From: Rhodamnia argentea
Taxonomy: Eukaryota; Streptophyta; Magnoliopsida; Myrtales; Myrtaceae
Direction of reading: 5' to 3'
Length of the DNA: 64,000 nucleotides
Assembly (NCBI RefSeq): GCF_020921035.1
Contig: NC_063160.1
Coordinates: forward strand, 3,058,501 to 3,122,500
The notes beneath the pieces were generated by a model. The model searched no databases, was not told the DNA's origin, and was given only the letters and a program-made list of their open reading frames with translations. Made by a program: the position numbers and the translations under genes. Shown piece by piece: positions 5,422 to 58,403 of this stretch; positions within the stretch are counted from its first letter, which is position 1; every line of letters starts with the position of its first letter.

Positions 5422-8045
5422 TTATGGTGTCTTGAAGCCTTTTGTCTCGCCACATCCCATGATCTCAGAAGGCAACTTTCCCACCTTGTCGACACCTTCT
5501 TCAAACACCGCGCCCATGCCCATGTAGAAATGAGACTCTACATGGCAATGGAACAACCAAACGCCCGGATTATCTGCGATAAATCTGAGGGCAGTCCACC
5601 CGTAAGGATGGACGGCTACCGTGTTCTTCTTTATCGGGTTCGCCAAATTGTACTTCTTCGGGTCGTTGTCGGGGTCGAATTTGCCTATCCCGTACCCAAG
5701 GACCCAGAAATCGTGGCCGTGGAGGTGCCATGGGTGCGTCTCGCTGTTGTTCACGATCATGGAGTTTGCATTTTGCAATATGATGTCCACTGTAGTGTTG
5801 AACTTCAGTCTATAGATCGCGTTGCTAGAGGTGGCATTGGTGTTGTTCGCGACGCGGTAGATGGGGTAGTCTGCAAAGCCGGGTAGCTGGTCGGGAAGTG
5901 GGCGCTGATCGAACACGTGGTGGAGATTCTCCTTGAGGGCAATTAGGTACGGCGTGTTCGGGAGCGAGAGTGATACGTTGTTCAGGGACCAATGGTAATA
6001 ACCGTCGATCTTGTTCTGCGTGTTGAGGAACACAATCACTCGGTCCGATTTGGGCGGCGGAGTGTGGATGTACCCTTGGCGGGCTTTGATCGCCGAACTC
6101 TGAGCCAATCGTGGCGCGACGTCGTTCCACATCGGGCCGGCGGGTGGATTCGTGGGTGGGACCCTCTTCGGGTGGTTCGGGTAATAATTGAGGACGGCCA
6201 GACCGGGAGGGGTCGTGGCCGTGGCGTTCCGGCCAACAATGTTGGTCGTGATCCAGTAATTTCTTGATGGTTCTTGGTCGATTTTGATCAAGACAGAGTA
6301 CGTCTCGCCCGAGTAGATGAACAGATTTTGGACCACAATTGGCTCTACGTAATGCCCGTCTGCTTCAACTATAGTCATGTTGTGACCCTGCAAAATATAT
6401 TTATATTTGTCATATGATCCAGCATCGAATTCCAAATTATAATTACATATTTCACTTGATTCCGGAAAAAAATAAAAATGAAACGAAGAAATTTCTTTTT
6501 TTGGTCGGAGAAGTCATATCTCAAAATTAAGGTGGGAATGTAACGAGCATCCAACGTTGTTTTACTTTCTTGGTACAAGTGGATATTCTAATTTGCTCAG
6601 GATGTGGACACATTTAATAATTGGCCAACACCGAGATTGCTGTTTACCCTTTATTTCGTTACTGTTCCTCGACTTCTAAATTTTGTGCAAATTTTTAAAT
6701 ATCCCATCCAAAAAATTCAACTTTAGACCAAAAAAATAAAAAATAAAAAACCAAAAAATTCAACTTATAAAGTGGAATGAAACTAAGAGGTGTATAAGGT
6801 CATTATAAGGATTCTTGTGTGTAAACTTGCAAGACAATTTAACACATCATCTCGTGTGTAATCTGAAATGAGATGTTAACAGTGAAGGTCTTTCGTCTTC
6901 GAGACTTTAAAATCGCTCTAGGAAGCCACGAAAAAAGAAGAACCAAAGGAATAATTTTTAGGTGATGAAAGTTTACCTCAATTTGAAAGCTGAGAGCCGA
7001 AAGAGTGGCCGTACTCGAAATCCTGAGGCGATATTTTTTACCGGGGACGACTGTTAATACGTATGGCGAACATTCGGGATTGGTAGCATTACAAGCCGAT
7101 GGATCTGAGCTTGGAGGGGCCAATTTGGAGCAATCAAACTTTCCCTTCCCATGAATTAGCAGTGACTACAATTCAAGCAAAAAAGGTAAAAAAAAAATAT
7201 GAGCAAAGAGTGAAAATGGGGTTTAAGTTTTGGAATTGGGAAGCAAAGAAACTTAATTACTTGAGGCTCCCCAACCCAACCGAAGGGAATGGAGGATAGA
7301 CCAACAGCTTGTTCATAAGTGCTGTTGTGGTACCAGTCGCTGAGGATGATGCTCTTGTCATAGTCGTAAGGGAACGGCTCGGCCATGCCGTCCGGCAGCG
7401 AAACCCGGATCGATCCATACAGTCCGGCCCCTCTTTGCATCCCGTAATGAGCATGGTACAAGTATGTTCCGGCCTACATAAGGTAAGAAGTATAATGTCA
7501 TCCAGAGCTGCTTGATATGACGGTTTAGAAAAGCTCGCATGAACAGGGTGCGAACGATAATCTTTGTATTGGATGAGACTCACCCGGTCAACGATAAAGC
7601 GATAGGTAAAAGTGTCTCCAGGCAAAATAGGGCACTGAGTCACACCCCCGGTTCCGTCGCTCCACGGGCTTCCAATCTGCAATTTAGTCCAGCCGGAATC
7701 ATCATCTCAAGAACTTATCATCACCAAATCATCACGAAACACTCGACCGAGACCTTCTTAACATAGTTTCAATTTGGTTCACCATAATACCTGTCTGATT
7801 CCGTGCCAGTGAATCGCGAGATTCTCGGTCCCCAAGTTGTTGGTGACTTCCACGACGACGGTGTCCCCCTGTTGTGCCAGAATGGCCGGACCCGGGGTCT
7901 TGCCGTTGACGGTGATGGCCAGCTTCTCATAGCAGTCCGGCGACTTGAACTCATACTTCACATCCCACTTGTAGTGACGAACTCTAGCCTCCGCCAGTGC
8001 CATCGTCGCGAGGACACATAGCGACAACGTGATTAATCGACTCAT
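5422..8045 (-). CDS. AAO: L-ascorbate oxidase, five exons, intact
   Basis: Secreted blue multicopper oxidase that oxidises ascorbate in the cell wall and reduces O2 to water. Exons, in coding order: 8045-7791, 7676-7584, 7473-7261, 7165-6977, 6387-5422. All introns are GT-AG and phase 0, giving 571 residues, the usual family length. The chosen ATG starts a signal peptide ([20 protein letters not shown]); the open frame further upstream is ignored because it would bury this. Copper motifs are complete: HWHG (79-82), HAH (123-125), HPWHLHGH (468-475) and [12 protein letters not shown] (530-541) with the axial Met. Complete ligands distinguish it from SKU5-like homologues, which lack them. A dead tandem paralogue lies 8 kb upstream on the same strand. 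The exon model is by eye, but homology and frame agree throughout. Confidence 0.93.
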
Positions 8046-15959: not shown

Positions 15960-16714
15960 AACGGAACCTTAATTGTATACAAATAAGTGACGAATAATTC
16001 AATTGTGGTCTCTCGAAGCCTTTTGTCTCCCCACATCCCATGATATCCGATAGCAACTTGCTCACCTTCTCGACACCTTCCTCAAACACCACGCCCATGC
16101 CCATATGGAAATGAGACTCTATATGGCAATAGAACGCCCAAACGCCCGGGTTATCCGCCAGGAATCTCACGGCGGTCCATCCGTACCATGCTCTTCATGA
16201 TCGGGTTCATCAAGTTGTTCCTTTTCGGGTTATTGTCGATGTCGAATTTCCCCGTCCCATACCCAAGGACCCAGAAATATTGGCCGTGGAGACGCCCTTG
16301 GTGTGTCTCGCTATCGTTCGCAGTCATTGTAATTGCATTTTGCAATATGATGTCCACTGTGGAGTTGAACTTTAGTCTATAAATCGAGTCGCTAGAGGTG
16401 GCATCGGTGTTGTTCGACTTTTGGTAGGTGTCGTAGCACGCGAAGTCATGTAGTAGATCGGGCTCGAACACGTGATAGAGATTCTCCTTGAGGGCGATCA
16501 GGCACGGTGTGTGTGGGAGCCTGAATGGCATGTTCTTCACGGACCAACGGTAATAACGGTCAATCGTGTCCTGTGTGTCGAGGAACATAATCACTCCGTC
16601 CGATTTCGGCGGCAGAGTGTGGATGTATCCTTGGTGGACTTTGATTGCCAAGCTCTAAGCCAATCGCGGCGCGATGTTGTTCTAGATTGGGCCGGCGGGA
16701 GGATTTGTGGGCGG

Positions 16715-33989: not shown

Positions 33990-38345
<4,356 letters not shown>

Positions 38346-46473: not shown

Positions 46474-47785
46474 TTAGAACTTAGAAATCAACCTTGGATA
46501 GACCCTTAGTCCCTGCCCTTCCGGCGATGGCAGGGGCAAACTACGTAGAACGACGGTCTCGATGGTGATTCCCGGGCCGAACCCCAAGAGCACCCCAAAC
46601 TCGAGCCCATCTCCTGTCGTGGCCTTCCCTGCCTCAGTGGATCTCTTCCTCATTTCATTCAAAATGAAGGGCACGGTCGCGCTCATCATGTTCCCGTACT
46701 CTTCCAGCACATGCCTCGCAGCTCTCGTCCTCTCTTTCGTCAGCCCAAGCGTCTCTTCCACCTCGTCAAGAACCTTCCAGCCTCCCGGGTGCACGACCCA
46801 AAAGATGGAGTTCCAATCACTAACGACGCCACCCTCGGTGGCCGAGCTAAAAGCCTTGACCAAGCATGCCTCCAGGGTGGAGCAAATCAATCTGGGCACC
46901 TCCCGCGCTAGACATACGGTGATGCCATGCTCCCTATACTGGCCTCCGATTGCTCCGCCGGTGCCTGGGATGAGCGTCTGTGAAGCGGAGATGATTTGGA
47001 AAAGGGGCCGTTCACCAGTCGTGCCTGGTGGAGCGACTCCGATAATCATAGCCGCTGCACCATCGCCCAAGATCGCGCTGTTCAGTAACTCCACACGATC
47101 TTCTCCTCGAGGTGGTTGAAATAGAAGGCAAGTTGACTCAACCCAAACAGCAAGGATCCGTGCCCTGGGGTTATTCTCAGCTATGTCCTTGGCAATGCGG
47201 AGGACGGTTCCGGATCCCTGGCAGCCAAGGTTGTAGAGCATGAGCCTGTTGATGGAAGGCGGGAGGTCAAGGAGCTTGGCAAGTTTTGCGTCTGCGCCGG
47301 GCATGTCCACCCCTGACATGGAGCAGAAGATGAGGTGGCTGATGGCCGATTTGGACTCACCCCACTCACCAATGGCCTTGATCGCTGCTTCGAACCCCAG
47401 TTTTGGGTGCATGTCGGTTGCCAGATCTTGACGTTGGTTAAGCGAGGCGGCACCGGAAGAGGTCATGCCCGGGTTTTGCTTCAAGATATCTTCTGTCAAG
47501 AGGAAATAACGCTTCTTTATGCTAGATTTCTTACCTGCAATTGAAGATAGGATCAGTCTAGAAGGGAAAGAAACGTATCTTTTTTTCCCTAATGCTCTCA
47601 GTTGTGTGGAGAACAAAGCTTCACTTACATAAGCGAGTGAACCTCTCCTTGAGATCTGTCAAATGCTCAGAATTTGTGACCCCAAAGAGAAAGTCAGGAT
47701 AGTCATCCTGAAATATACAGTTTGAAGGATTGGCGGTGCCGATGGCAAGAATTGCTGCTGGAACTTTGCAGTCTGAAGAACCCAT
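46474..47785 (-). CDS. Type III polyketide synthase, divergent active site
   Basis: Chalcone-synthase-superfamily enzyme that should extend a CoA starter with malonyl-CoA. Exon 1 is 47785-47629 and exon 2 is 47534-46474. The single intron splits a Cys codon (Cys53) after its first base, the classic CHS position. Total 405 residues, slightly longer than CHS because of a C-terminal tail. The catalytic triad is intact: Cys157 (YNLGCQGSG), His301 (VVHPGG), Asn334 (EYGNM). GFGPG is present. By alignment to alfalfa CHS2 (CHS residue first) the pocket differs: T132 is Met125, V196 is Leu189, T197 is Leu190, G211 is Asn204, L214-F215 is Ile207-Leu208, F265 is Val259 and S338 is Met336. It is therefore unlikely to make chalcone. 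No stop or frameshift was seen. Starter and product are unknown. Confidence 0.93.
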
Positions 47786-47857: not shown

Positions 47858-47865
47858 CTTTTATA
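47858..47865 (-). promoter_or_regulatory. TATA box of polyketide synthase gene
   Basis: The minus strand reads CTATAAAAGG around here, close to consensus, about 75 bases before the start codon. This supports a functional promoter and a short leader of about 40-50 bases. Confidence 0.7.
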
Positions 47866-47883
47866 GAGGTAAGTGTAGGCATG

Positions 47884-47889
47884 CACGTG
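47884..47889. promoter_or_regulatory. G-box (CACGTG) upstream of polyketide synthase
   Basis: A palindromic CACGTG lies about 20 bases upstream of the TATA box. G-boxes bind bZIP/bHLH factors and are common in light- and stress-responsive chalcone-synthase-family promoters. Function here is inferred from position. Confidence 0.5.
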
Positions 47890-48009
47890 CTTTGCATGGG
47901 AGGCTAATTCCTGATTAAGACAAAATGATGTTGAAGATAAACTCGGCAGAGCTTATAGCCTGCATTCTTCGCTCTTTCTCTCAGTCTCTCGCTCGCTGAT
48001 CACTCCGCC

Positions 48010-51000
48010 TATTTGTGTCTGCACAAAATGTTCAACGGAGGAAGTTCAATTCTGTTTAAATGTACAAGAACCGATGGAGCATGGATTTTCTTTGCGAAGC
48101 CGTCAACTAGCAGTCCATGGGAGTCTCGGTAAACCCCAGTTACAGCTCCCATCCGTGATTCTCCGCACCAAGATCCATCAACGTTTAACTTCCAAGACCC
48201 TTTGGGCGGTGGGATCCAACGATCTGGAGGTAAACTTCCTTCACAAGCTCGTTTTCCTGTACTGGGATTCCATTTTGCGAAGATTTTTTGTGAGTTTAAC
48301 ACTTCTTCGATGAGGTGGCTCGGGTTCGGCTTATGGTTACGAAACACCACAGCGTTCCTTTCCTTCCAAATTGACCACAGTGTGCTGGCGAAGAGAGATC
48401 TCTCGGAGGGGTCGGCTCGGGAAGTTAGTTTCTCTAAAACCCTTTTCTCGATTCTAGTTACTCTTGTTGGGGAGGTGTCACAATTGAGCCAAAAATCTGA
48501 CCATATATTTTTTGTCCAGTCACATAGGATGATAAGGTGTTCAGGAGATTCTGGGGCTAGCCGACAGACCAGACAAAGCGAATCAGGTGCCATTTTCCTT
48601 CTATAAAGGTTTTCCTTAGTTGATAATGCATTGTTGCAAACACTCCAAAGGAAGAACCTTATCTTCGAGTAGTGTGAATCTGCCATATTTGTGGTCCATA
48701 AAACTCTAGGAGGCTTGTATGACGGTGACGCCTGGTTGGCGTTAGGAGGTTTGACCAGGGAACATAGGCTGTTATAACCGCTTTTAACTGAGTAGCACCC
48801 TGTCTTGTTTCCAGTCCATATCAACTTGTCTGTCGTTGGATTAGTGCTGAGTGGAGTTGAAAGTATCTCTCACACCACATCCTCATCGAAGAGTCCAATT
48901 ACCTTCTGGGTGTTCCACTCTTTAGTCTCCTGGTTAATCAGTTCCTCAACAAGTTGGGGTCAGTTAAGTTTGCCGGACCACCAATTCGACCTATAGGTAA
49001 CCACTTGTCTTCCCTAACTTTAATTCTCTTTCCGTCTCCCACTAGCCATCTCACTTCCGGCTCAATCGCCTCCCTACCCACCAACAAACTTTGCCACCCC
49101 CAAGAAGGGCGGTGGCCCTCATTTGCTTGCCAAAAGTCCCCTTGCGGGAAATAGATCCCTTTCACCAGTTGGCTCCACAAGGCATTCGGTTCTTGTATTA
49201 GGCACCAAGCCTGTCTCCCGAGCATTGCCTTATTGAAGGCAACAAGATCTTTGAAACCTAAACCTCCCGAGTCTTTCCTAGTCTTCAAAGTTTCCCATTT
49301 CCTCCAGTGGATTCCTCCTTTAGCTGCATTTTGTTTCCACCAAAAGGATGCAATTCTCTCCTCAATCGACTTGCAAATCGAAATGGGGATCTTAAAGATC
49401 GACATTGCATACTGTGGTAAAGCCTGAACAACTGTTTTGATAAGAGTCTCTTTTCCCGCCTTTGTGATTAGTTTTTCCTTCCACCCATCAAGTTTCATGT
49501 TGACTCTTGCTAGGACCCAAGCAAACATTTGTTTCTTTGATTGCCCCCAGTTAGAAGGAATTCCTAAATACTTGCCAGTCCTGTGTATGATTGGGACTCT
49601 CAGCTCGCCTGCCATATTCCTCTTCAATTGATCGGGGCAGCCATTGCTAAAAAAGACCCCAAACTTGTTTAAATTAATGGCTTGTCCCGATGCATAACAA
49701 TATTGGTTCAGGGTATTTGACACATTTTGGCATTCCCCGACCGTCTCATCCAAGAGGAAAATGGCATCATCAGCAAATAAAAGGTGAGATAATGTCGGGC
49801 ACCACCTATTCAATTTAATACCTCCGATGCTGCCATCCCCTATTGCCTTGTTCATTAAAGAGGATAGTACGTTGGCCAGAATGATGAATAAATGAGGTAA
49901 AAGTGGGTCCCCTTGCCTGATCCCTAGGGAGGGTTGGAACTGTTGAAGAGATTGCCCATTAACTCTCACACTAAAGGAGACTGTGGATATGCATTGTTTA
50001 ACCAACTTTTCCCAGTTGTCACAGAAGCCCTTTCTCAGCATGCATTCACATAAAAAGTCCCATTCCACTCTATCATATGCTTTTTGCATGTCCAATTTGA
50101 GGATCGCTTGGAATTTCCCCTCTTTTCCTGATACGCAGCTGATGAAGCACCTCCTGCACTATTAGGATATTATCTTGAATCTGCCTACCTCTCACAAAGG
50201 CACTTTGCTCCAAAGCTATGAGTTCGGGAAGCCATGGTTTGAGACTGTTGACCATGACTTTCGAGATAATCTTGTAGCTGAAATTGCATAGACTTATAGG
50301 CCTGTATTGTGCGATACTCTCTGGATGCGCTACCTTCGATATTAGAACAATATGTGTTTTGTTTAGACTCGGGTTGAACGTACCTGAAGTGAAGAAGTTA
50401 TCCACCATTCGGTAAACATCATGCTGAATATCCTCCCAGTAGTTTTGGTAGAATTGCCCATTAAGACCATCTGGACTTCGTGCCTAAGTTGCTCCCATTT
50501 GAAAGACCACTTCCCTAACTTCCTCCATCGTCACTTTTTTCAATAATGCCACATTCATTTCATCTTTTACTAGGCGCGGGCATTGATCTAACACAGGCTG
50601 AAAATTCCTGGGACCCATGGTGGCATATAAAGACTGGTAAAATTGGTTTATGTGTAGCTTCAGCACTGTGGGGTCTTGACACCAACCTTGGTCATCCAAT
50701 CTCAACATTGAAATCCTGCTGCGTTGCCTGCGTTGGACCGTAGTGGCATGGAAAAATTGTGTTCCTGTCCCCCCATCTTAGCCAACTAATTCGGGATCTC
50801 ATACTCCAATACATGTCTTCCCACCTCCATAGTTTATCTATATGCTCTTTGATACGTTCGATCTCCATCCTACTCCCATCAATGCTAGGGCAGTTTGTCA
50901 GCTCAGTAAGCTTCCTATTCAAGAGTCCAATTTGATGGTTAGCATTAGAGAACTTCTTTCTATTCCATTCCACCAACGGGCCCCACTTTTCTCGATTTCC

Positions 51001-55744: not shown

Positions 55745-58403
55745 ATGGAGGCCTTCAACACCATTGCCAGCAACATCCTAACAGTAGAAAGATCCGCCCC
55801 TGTCCCGGTCCTACCGGAACAAGACACACCCGGGGGTTCCATTTTCTTAAGTAGCATTGACAATGTGGCTTTGACAATCATGTCAACCGTTTATTCCTTC
55901 AACAGGAGCGATGCGGATGTGGCAGGCGTGATTAAGCAAGCTTTATCCAAAGTTTTGGTTTATTACTATCCTCTCGCAGGGAGGTTAGCCAAGAACTCTC
56001 AGGGAAAGTTGATTGTCGATTGCCAGAAGAAGTTTGCAGTCCCATTTGTGGAGGCATCGGCCAATTGCGACATCGAAAATCTGGGCGATATCCAAATCAT
56101 GGATTCTGGTACTTTGGGAAAGCTCGTTTACAGAGACCCTACTGAAAATATGCTGGAAGATGGACCCCTTCTAACAGCACAGGTGAACAATTTCTTTCTC
56201 CGTTTGCTGGTAACAATTGACAACACTTTACATTCTATTTTCTTTCGCTTTATCATCAATTGTAATGGTGAATTTCTTTTGGTAGTCTTAAATTCACATG
56301 GGACTAGATAATATCATGTTCCACATGCATCCTTGATGTAGTTCGTCACTTCACTTAAAGAAGGAAAATTACCAAAACCGTCATAAACCTATTGCAATTG
56401 TGTGAATTGAGTTATACACCTTTTTTTCTTTTTTTGCCAATTGAGTCCCTAAAACTTTTACATTTATGCCAATTCAGTCCATCCGACCAACTTTTACCAG
56501 CCGGTGTTAACGTGAAAATTTTTAATAATATTTCAATATTTTCTCAAAAATTGTTTTTCTTTGATGCTTTTTTTTCTTCTTCTTCTTCTTCCCGTAGCCG
56601 GTAGATGGATAAGCAATTGGCCAGATTCGAGGGCCAGTGAGGGTGAGGTTGGCCTTGCCCAACCGGATCCGGCAAGGCTTGCACTCCCCATCGCTATGCG
56701 AGGGCGACCTCGCCCTCGCCTCTAGCTGGTTAAACATGTGGTGACCAGCTAGAGGAAGAAGGATAAGAGAAAAATTAACAATATTAAAATATTTAAAATA
56801 CTCCACATGAGCTCCAGCCTGCCAAAATTAGTCGGATGGACCGAATTGGCACAAATGCAAAAGGTTTAGGACTCAATTGACAAAAAAAAATTATTTAGGA
56901 TAGAATTGTCATAATTGCAATAAATTTATAACTTTTTTGATAATTTTCCCCACTTCGGATGGAGTGATTATTTGCATCTGTAATTAATGCGTTAAATCTT
57001 TCCAATGTTGTTGGTGAATCTCCATTTGGGGAAAGTCCTCTTAGTATAAACTGGGACTTTCTTCATAACCTCCCATGATCGAGAAGTAAATTTGACTCTT
57101 CAGTTTTTACAGTAACTAACTTTTTTCTAGTATGTTTAGCAACCTTTCATATGGAAAATCTAAGTATAGGCATATTAGTAAAGAAAGTAGTATTTTCGAT
57201 GTGGTATGGAACTTCTTTTCTATAGAAAGAATAACTACCAATATACTTTGCAACATAAGAATAGGCGTATTAAGATACAGTTTGCAACAATATTGCCAAT
57301 TTATCATGGTGACAATATTTCATTAAAGATAGTAACTATCGATCATCAATTTATCACCATTAAATTAATTCATGCATGTTGGCCCCCCCATAAGAACTTT
57401 AGATTCATAGATTCGATGTTTATTTGGATGTAAGGAGCATGCACTCAATCCCGGAAAGATGGCAAGAGGTTATTCATATAAGTTACCATTATTGCATGAT
57501 ATATCGGGATTATAGTAACTTTGGAGATTGCATAAACAGGTTACAAGGTTCAAATGTGGAAGTTTCACTTTAGGGATCGCACTTCACCACTGCATGGTGG
57601 ACGGCATCGGCGCATTTCAATTTGTGAACTCGTGGGCTGAGTTAGCAAGAGGTAAACCATTATCCATGGTTCCTTGTCACGACAGAACAATTTTGAAGCC
57701 ACGGGTGCCACCTCAAATTAGCGGTCCTTATGACGACTTTGTTCACGTGAGCGATGTATCGAACTTCATGGAATTATACCAAAGAGAGCAAATGGTGTAT
57801 AAATCTTTCCACTTTGATGGTGAGAAGCTGGCGACCCTAAGAAAAATGGCAACACCTGATGGACATGTTATGAGCAACTGCTCCAACTTTGTCGCGCTCT
57901 CGGCTCTAGTATGGCGGTCTCGAAGCATTGCACTCAAGATGAAACCGCACCAACTGTCGAAGCTTCTCTTAACGGTCGATATCCGACCAAAGCTGGGAAC
58001 ATCAATGCGCGATGGATACTTTGGGAATGCCATAATCGCATCTTCCTGTCTCTGCACCGCTGGACAGCTGATTGATGAGCCGATCTCTTCCACAGCGGGA
58101 AAAATAAATGAGGCGATCGAGAGGGTGACAGAGGACTACGTGCGGTCGTCGCTCGATTTCATGGACACGTACCAATTTGATCCTTACTCAGTGAGCTCCC
58201 TGTTGATAAGTTCATGGTTGAGGCTGGATTATAGCTGCATAGACTTTGGATGGGGAGGGCCGAGGCAGTTCGGCACCGGCAACCCACCACCGAATCTCTG
58301 CATGTTTATGAGGGAAGACACTGAGAATAAGAAGGGCATTGTGGTGGTGTTGGGCTTGCCACTTTCGGCTATGAACACGTTCCAAGAGTTGGTTCAAATA
58401 TAA
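55745..58403 (+). CDS. BAHD acyltransferase, HHT/ASFT-like
   Basis: Acyl-CoA-dependent O- or N-acyltransferase, cytosolic. Exon 1 is 55745-56182 and exon 2 is 57540-58403, joined in phase 0 across a 1357-base GT-AG intron at the position usual in BAHD genes (just before VTRFKCG). Total 433 residues. Motifs: the catalytic HCMVD (His163-Asp167) and the structural DFGWG (381-385), both intact. Early segments SIFLSSIDNVALTIMSTVYS and YYYPLAGRLAKNSQGKLIVD resemble the omega-hydroxyacid hydroxycinnamoyl (suberin/cutin feruloyl) transferase branch, but alcohol acyltransferases are similar, so the substrate is uncertain. The intron holds a 590-base MITE. No lesion was seen. Confidence 0.9.
56362..56950. 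mobile_element. MITE with GC-rich core in BAHD intron
   Basis: The left end 'ggaaaattaccaaaaccgtc' matches the right end reversed ('gggaaaattatcaaaaaagt'), and both arms continue with 'ttgcaattgtg'- and 'aattgagtcc'-like text. The core (56600-56760) is GC-rich with 'gagggcgacctcgccctcgc'. Flanks share only 'cactt', so the target duplication is diverged or absent. Single-arm relatives occur near 3000, 8900 and 43700. Confidence 0.7.

Follow-up and report, generated by a model that had tools for sequence, protein, structure and literature searches.

Type III polyketide synthases (PKSs) are a classic example of how a shared fold acquires new chemistry through a few substitutions in its pocket. 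Here we describe a PKS gene of Rhodamnia argentea (Myrtaceae) that lies in a stretch of 64,000 nucleotides, referred to below as the window (RefSeq assembly GCF_020921035.1, contig NC_063160.1, positions 3,058,501 to 3,122,500, forward strand). Several described enzymes provide a background, with residues given in chalcone synthase (CHS) numbering. According to the parts of PMC6274091 and PMC8551677 available to us, Leu132, Leu215 and Ser338 block the coumaroyl pocket of benzalacetone synthase (BAS), the product of which is a diketide; 2-pyrone synthase (2-PS), with Leu197, Leu256 and Ile338, makes a triketide; and the substitution T132L turns benzophenone synthase (BPS) to a phenylpyrone. A smaller residue at position 265, as in acridone synthase (ACS) and quinolone synthase (QNS), or at position 215, as in CHS F215S, makes room for bulky starters. 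The former source adds that the QNS of Citrus microcarpa (CmQNS), with Met132, Met194 and Tyr197, releases only a diketide, and that Thr197 is thought to direct Claisen closure (PMC6274091). The protein encoded in the window has a rebuilt active site, as a sequence-only reading of this DNA had proposed, and there is good support for a function other than chalcone synthesis; the different starter and shorter product proposed in the same reading remain predictions.

The gene runs on the minus strand from 47785 to 46474 and comprises two exons encoding 405 amino acids, with an open frame and intact splice signals (Table 1). The protein has the features of the CHS superfamily: both Chal_sti_synt domains, the GFGPG loop, and a Cys-His-Asn triad consisting of Cys157, His301 and Asn334 (C164, H303 and N336 of CHS). 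The triad and the loop, previously described as standard, are both intact in a MAFFT alignment with CHS2 from alfalfa. Pfam matches to the open reading frame (ORF) 46474-47616, which lacks exon 1, are Chal_sti_synt_N at 3.9e-60 (profile positions 58-225 of 225) and Chal_sti_synt_C at 3.8e-53 (1-151 of 151). The intron occupies what we take to be the usual position for the family; the T^GT split was part of our paralog search pattern, so its presence in nine paralog models is no independent test of this position. The ORF is a real gene and not a chance frame, given its sequence identity to two intact paralogs (67.3% and 63.4%) and to CHS2 (53.7%), and the evidence for purifying selection presented below.

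The substrate pocket was compared with that of CHS2, the sequence of which was checked against PDB entry 1bi5, in a residue table of 24 rows: the window protein, 13 PDB sequences including CHS2, and ten sequences from the same genome. All eight of the pocket changes previously listed are present, namely T132M, V196L, T197L, G211N, L214I, F215L, F265V and S338M. A pairwise alignment placing ordinary CHS residues at these positions had been named beforehand as a possible refutation, and no such placement was found. Further changes relative to CHS2 are T131S, Q162L, C190W, V193S, G200P, Q212S, D255G and L263I, while S133, M137, E192, T194, I254, G256 and P375 are retained along with the triad and the GFGPG loop. 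We used two lists of pocket positions: 12 taken from the part of PMC11093982 available to us, and 16 obtained by adding 196, 211, 214 and 263, of which 196, 211 and 214 had already been listed as changed. The window protein differs from CHS2 at nine of the 16 positions, and the five residues that mark a chalcone synthase pocket (T132, T197, F215, F265 and S338) are replaced by Met, Leu, Leu, Val and Met, respectively. It is most improbable that the enzyme is in practice a chalcone synthase that tolerates its pocket changes. Its catalytic and CoA-binding residues are indeed kept, save for K55R, and its overall identity to CHS2 is 53.7%, but more than half of the pocket is altered, and two other genes in the genome, L009 and L010, match CHS at all 16 pocket positions and can serve as its chalcone synthases.

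Four residues of the window protein, Met132, Asn211, Met338 and Trp190 (Trp183 in the numbering of the protein itself), are unique to it within the table of 24 rows. The claim that no characterised enzyme has this exact set of residues holds for these four positions in the 13 tabulated PDB sequences; T132M is given for CmQNS in PMC6274091. The table covers a minority of the 93 distinct PDB sequences that match the window ORF at E ≤ 1e-20 (60 among the matches listed), and CmQNS (PDB 3wd8) and the curcumin synthases lie outside it. In the literature on plant type III PKSs, including those of Myrtaceae, as far as it was available to us, we recognised no characterised enzyme as the window enzyme, which is not proof of absence.

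The likeness to individual enzymes is partial in every case. The Ile214-Leu215 pair attributed to BAS of Rheum palmatum is present both in the BAS sequence (3a5q) and in the window protein, which also share Leu162, a bulky residue at 132, and Gly256. BAS differs in having Leu132, Ala133, Thr196, Cys197, Phe265 and Ser338, its overall identity to the window protein is 55.1%, and it belongs to another clade; the combination of Leu132 and Ala133 with descent from a common ancestor with rhubarb BAS is thus not seen in the window protein, which has Met132 and Ser133. CmQNS resembles the window protein in Met132 and differs in Ala133, Met194, Tyr197 and Leu265, where the window protein has Ser133, Thr194, Leu197 and Val265 (residues of 3wd8 as given in PMC6274091). 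The QNS of Aegle marmelos (AmQNS, 6l5u) has Val265 in common with the window protein, and Ser132, Ala133 and Phe215 in place of Met132, Ser133 and Leu215. The combination that characterises quinolone and acridone synthases, S133A with Val or Leu at 265 and Rutaceae descent, is missing, as Ser133 is kept and the protein stands apart from AmQNS and CmACS. The T197L change was correctly likened to Gerbera 2-PS: Leu197 is found in 1ee0 and in the window protein, as is a bulky hydrophobic residue at 338. However, 2-PS has Leu256 and keeps Thr132, Phe215 and Phe265 (54.8% identity), and of its three characteristic changes, T197L, G256L and S338I, the window protein has Leu197 together with Gly256 and Met338. 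The aldol switch of stilbene synthases (Glu192-Thr132-water-Ser338) is not preserved either, since Glu192 is kept but Met132 and Met338 lack hydroxyls. Finally, the pair F265Y and S338G of benzophenone and biphenyl synthases (PMC5713876, available in part) is replaced by Val265 and Met338.

We hold with moderate confidence that the product of the gene is a functional type III PKS of a lineage-specific clade, which would make a small non-chalcone polyketide by releasing it early, as a di- or triketide. The starter would enter through an opening that F215L and F265V have widened and be loaded onto Cys157, and Met132, Leu197 and Met338 would fill the coumaroyl-binding pocket. With the aldol-switch hydroxyls of Thr132 and Ser338 gone, and Thr197 gone too, the chain would leave as a methyl ketone, an acid or a pyrone once one or two malonyl units had been condensed. 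Such a release would resemble that of BAS, quinolone synthase or 2-PS, reached independently. We infer early release from three features: the blocking residues at 132, 197 and 338, the gates at 215 and 265, which are opened, and the loss of the Thr132, Ser338 and Thr197 hydroxyls.

The relationships within the genome bear on this independence. With every exon and fragment scored as a separate match, searches of the assembly (346.7 Mb, 74 contigs) gave 36 for PF00195 and 45 for the window protein. Full-length open type III PKS models number ten, the window gene and nine others; eight more loci (L012 and L019 to L025) are broken, interrupted or incomplete. In a tree of the 24 sequences, the window protein groups with L018 and L023 (support 100/99), then with L017 (100/100) and then with L014 (92/86), and lies apart from BAS, QNS/ACS, 2-PS and BPS/biphenyl synthase. 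As 11 of the 21 inner branches have support below 80, we used only the well supported clades and not the deeper order. Because the window protein groups with paralogs from its own genome and not with those enzymes, its likeness to BAS, QNS and 2-PS looks best read as convergence.

The tree places the window gene in an own-genome clade with several differently rebuilt pockets. L018 (C7:16112529-16113536; 67.3% identity) and L017 (C4:27578068; 63.4%) share Leu196 and Leu162 with the window protein. Their pockets differ from it: L018 has Thr132, Pro211, Thr214, Phe215, Leu256, Thr265 and Leu338, and L017 has Phe132, Ser211, Phe215, Met265, Phe338 and Ala375. Ile214 is common to L014, L017 and the window gene, whereas within the group Leu215 occurs in the window gene, L024 and L023; given these different distributions, the BAS-like Ile214-Leu215 pair was probably built in two steps.

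Some of these paralogs have peculiarities of their own. L018 and L023/L035 (C7:14229000-14235500) have HLGY in place of the HPGG of CHS2 at the catalytic His303, Gly306 being kept in the other 22 rows. L023/L035 carries a 2.9-kb insertion in exon 2 (about 1712-4619 of L035), flanked by a direct repeat of approximately 9 to 11 bases (CACCTAGTG, followed by TG on either side) of the kind that some DNA transposons leave. Outside the clade, the intact gene L016 (C2:21619193-21620164) has lost both gatekeeper Phe residues (Ile215, Ile265) and has Ala in place of Pro375.

The closest copy of the window gene is L024 (C7, from about 16,208,360), with 86.7% identity over 1,189 aligned bases. L024 is broken by frame changes and stop codons, and the start of its exon 1 is gone. 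We counted the changes on the two branches with L018 as outgroup, over 386, 386 and 387 sites at codon positions 1, 2 and 3. The window branch has 9, 11 and 24 changes at these positions (44 in total), compared to 32, 40 and 32 (104 in total) on the L024 branch (Fisher test of positions 1 and 2 against 3, p = 0.009). The ratio of synonymous to nonsynonymous changes is 11:7 on the window branch and 14.5:35.5 on the L024 branch (Fisher test on rounded counts, p = 0.02). Given the third-position bias on its own branch and the even spread on that of L024, constraint has acted on the window gene from the time the two split. Over the whole gene, the ratio of nonsynonymous to synonymous rates (dN/dS) is 0.28 to L018 and 0.24 to L017; the value to L024, 0.56, includes the broken branch. 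That the window gene itself is a decaying duplicate, its pocket having drifted after loss of function, is unlikely in view of this bias and of the far smaller number of changes on its branch, and its frame, splice signals and triad are all intact. What speaks for decay is the state of the eight damaged relatives and a retrotransposon that adjoins the promoter of the window gene. The codons for Met132, Leu196, Asn211, Ile214, Leu215 and Met338 are identical in the window gene and L024, so most of the rebuilt pocket predates their split.

Several observations weigh against early release of a short product. The window protein keeps Gly256, a position at which Leu restricts the length of the chain in 2-PS, and also Ser133 and Thr194, both altered in CmQNS. 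Leu197 and Ile214 are also found in olivetol synthase (6gw3, annotated as a 3,5,7-trioxododecanoyl-CoA synthase), a longer-chain enzyme, and PCS and OKS, the products of which are penta- and octaketides, have Val338 (PMC6274091). Residues such as these are thus not enough on their own to impose a short product. L024 has Arg190, Val197 and Ala265, and the window changes at 190, 197 and 265 may thus be more recent than the others. Expression of the gene may also be low, because of the retrotransposon near its promoter and the broken state of several relatives. An AlphaFold2 model of exon 2 alone, from the single sequence, had a mean predicted local distance difference test score (pLDDT) of 36.8 and a predicted template modelling score (pTM) of 0.29, and we therefore claim no pocket volume.

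The resemblance to olivetol synthase raises the possibility, which we consider doubtful, of an active PKS that uses a short or branched aliphatic acyl-CoA starter and makes a tetraketide precursor of acylphloroglucinols or alkylresorcinols, like olivetol or valerophenone synthase. Leu162 and Ser131 are common to the window protein and 6gw3 in addition to Leu197 and Ile214, the retained Gly256 leaves space for cyclisation, and an aliphatic starter would be in keeping with the missing aromatic gate residues. However, Met132 and Met338 take away polar groups for aldol steering, and olivetol synthase keeps Phe215, Phe265 and Ser338, all of which are changed in the window protein (Leu215, Val265, Met338).

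The pockets of the clade as a whole are unusually variable. Over the 12 positions, the window gene, L018, L017 and L023 have 2.42 residue types per position, compared to 1.66 elsewhere in the protein (permutation p = 0.0027); the three intact genes alone have 2.08 and 1.58, respectively (p = 0.02). Four CHS-type enzymes used as a control gave 1.00 in the pocket and 1.33 elsewhere (p = 1), and a second control set of CHS2, BAS, 2-PS and olivetol synthase gave 1.92 and 1.76 (p = 0.31). L018 and L023 have 87% identity in the rest of the protein, yet agree at only seven of the 16 pocket positions (p = 0.0003). For this pair dN in the pocket is 0.435, compared to a dS of 0.124 there and 0.18 for the gene as a whole, and dN/dS in the rest of the gene is 0.38. 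The excess of dN over dS points to diversifying selection, although the resulting pocket dN/dS of 3.5 comes from one pair and a few codons (16), with L023 carrying an insertion (Fisher test on synonymous and nonsynonymous changes, p = 0.044). Pairs that include the window gene have pocket dN/dS values below 1 (0.32 to L018, 0.37 to L023 and 0.47 to L017). Among them the permutation test was significant only with L018 (p = 0.009), and not with L017 (p = 0.18), L023 (0.08), L014 (0.11) or CHS2 (0.28). The signal thus holds for the clade and is not demonstrated on the window branch. We tentatively suggest a lineage-specific PKS family in which diversifying selection acts on the pocket, the remainder of the fold being conserved, and each intact copy has a different pocket; the window copy would have independently joined features of BAS, Rutaceae QNS and Gerbera 2-PS to become an early-release enzyme with an undescribed starter and product.

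Table 1. Position of the PKS gene and of neighbouring features in the window.
Feature	Position	Strand	Remarks
PKS exon 1	47629..47785	minus	ATG at 47785; 52 codons and the first base of the Cys53 codon (translation, splice signals)
Intron, 94 bases, GT..AG, phase 1	47535..47628	minus	Cys codon split T^GT at residue 53
PKS exon 2	46474..47534	minus	Contains the triad and every pocket change listed; stop at 46474
CTATAAAAG	47858..47866	minus	About 75 bases upstream of the ATG (read from sequence)
CACGTG core	47884-47889		18 bases upstream of CTATAAAAG (read from sequence)
Non-LTR (LINE-type) retrotransposon pieces	48009..50095	minus	Separate frames; 3' side just upstream of the PKS promoter
BAHD acyltransferase gene	55745..58403	plus	Two ORF pieces; Pfam Transferase family; 8 kb from the PKS gene

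Upstream of the PKS gene, the motif CTATAAAAG (47866..47858) is presumably a TATA box. Homology to L018 in the upstream region stops at 47935. The segment 47867-47935 matches L018 twice, on the expected side and as an inverted copy further up (88% over 69 bases), and may be part of a repeat. The retrotransposon pieces were recognised from Pfam matches to zf-RVT (ORF 48009-48824) and RVT_1 (ORF 48938-50095). In the BAHD gene we take HHCMVDG and DFGWG to be the family motifs. Elsewhere in the window, Pfam matches on the minus strand indicate part of a multicopper oxidase (laccase-like) gene at 5422-6435 and a shorter one at 16151-16651, and there is a weak match to class I/II aminotransferases on the plus strand at 35164-35541 (20.6 bits, cut-off 19.7), an ORF that we take to resemble plastid prephenate/aspartate aminotransferase. 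A pathway cluster comprising the BAHD gene, the laccase and the aminotransferase-like ORF found no support: tblastn (E ≤ 1e-4) gave no match to the BAHD protein in the 20-kb regions surrounding L018, L024 and L017.

A family within one genome, with differing pockets, broken copies beside intact ones and pocket sites that vary more than the remainder, would allow the order of changes to be tested directly, for instance whether Ile214 preceded Leu215. The PKS family also offers enzymes for the engineering of small polyketides. If the window enzyme does make a diketide, it would represent a further independent origin of that chemistry.
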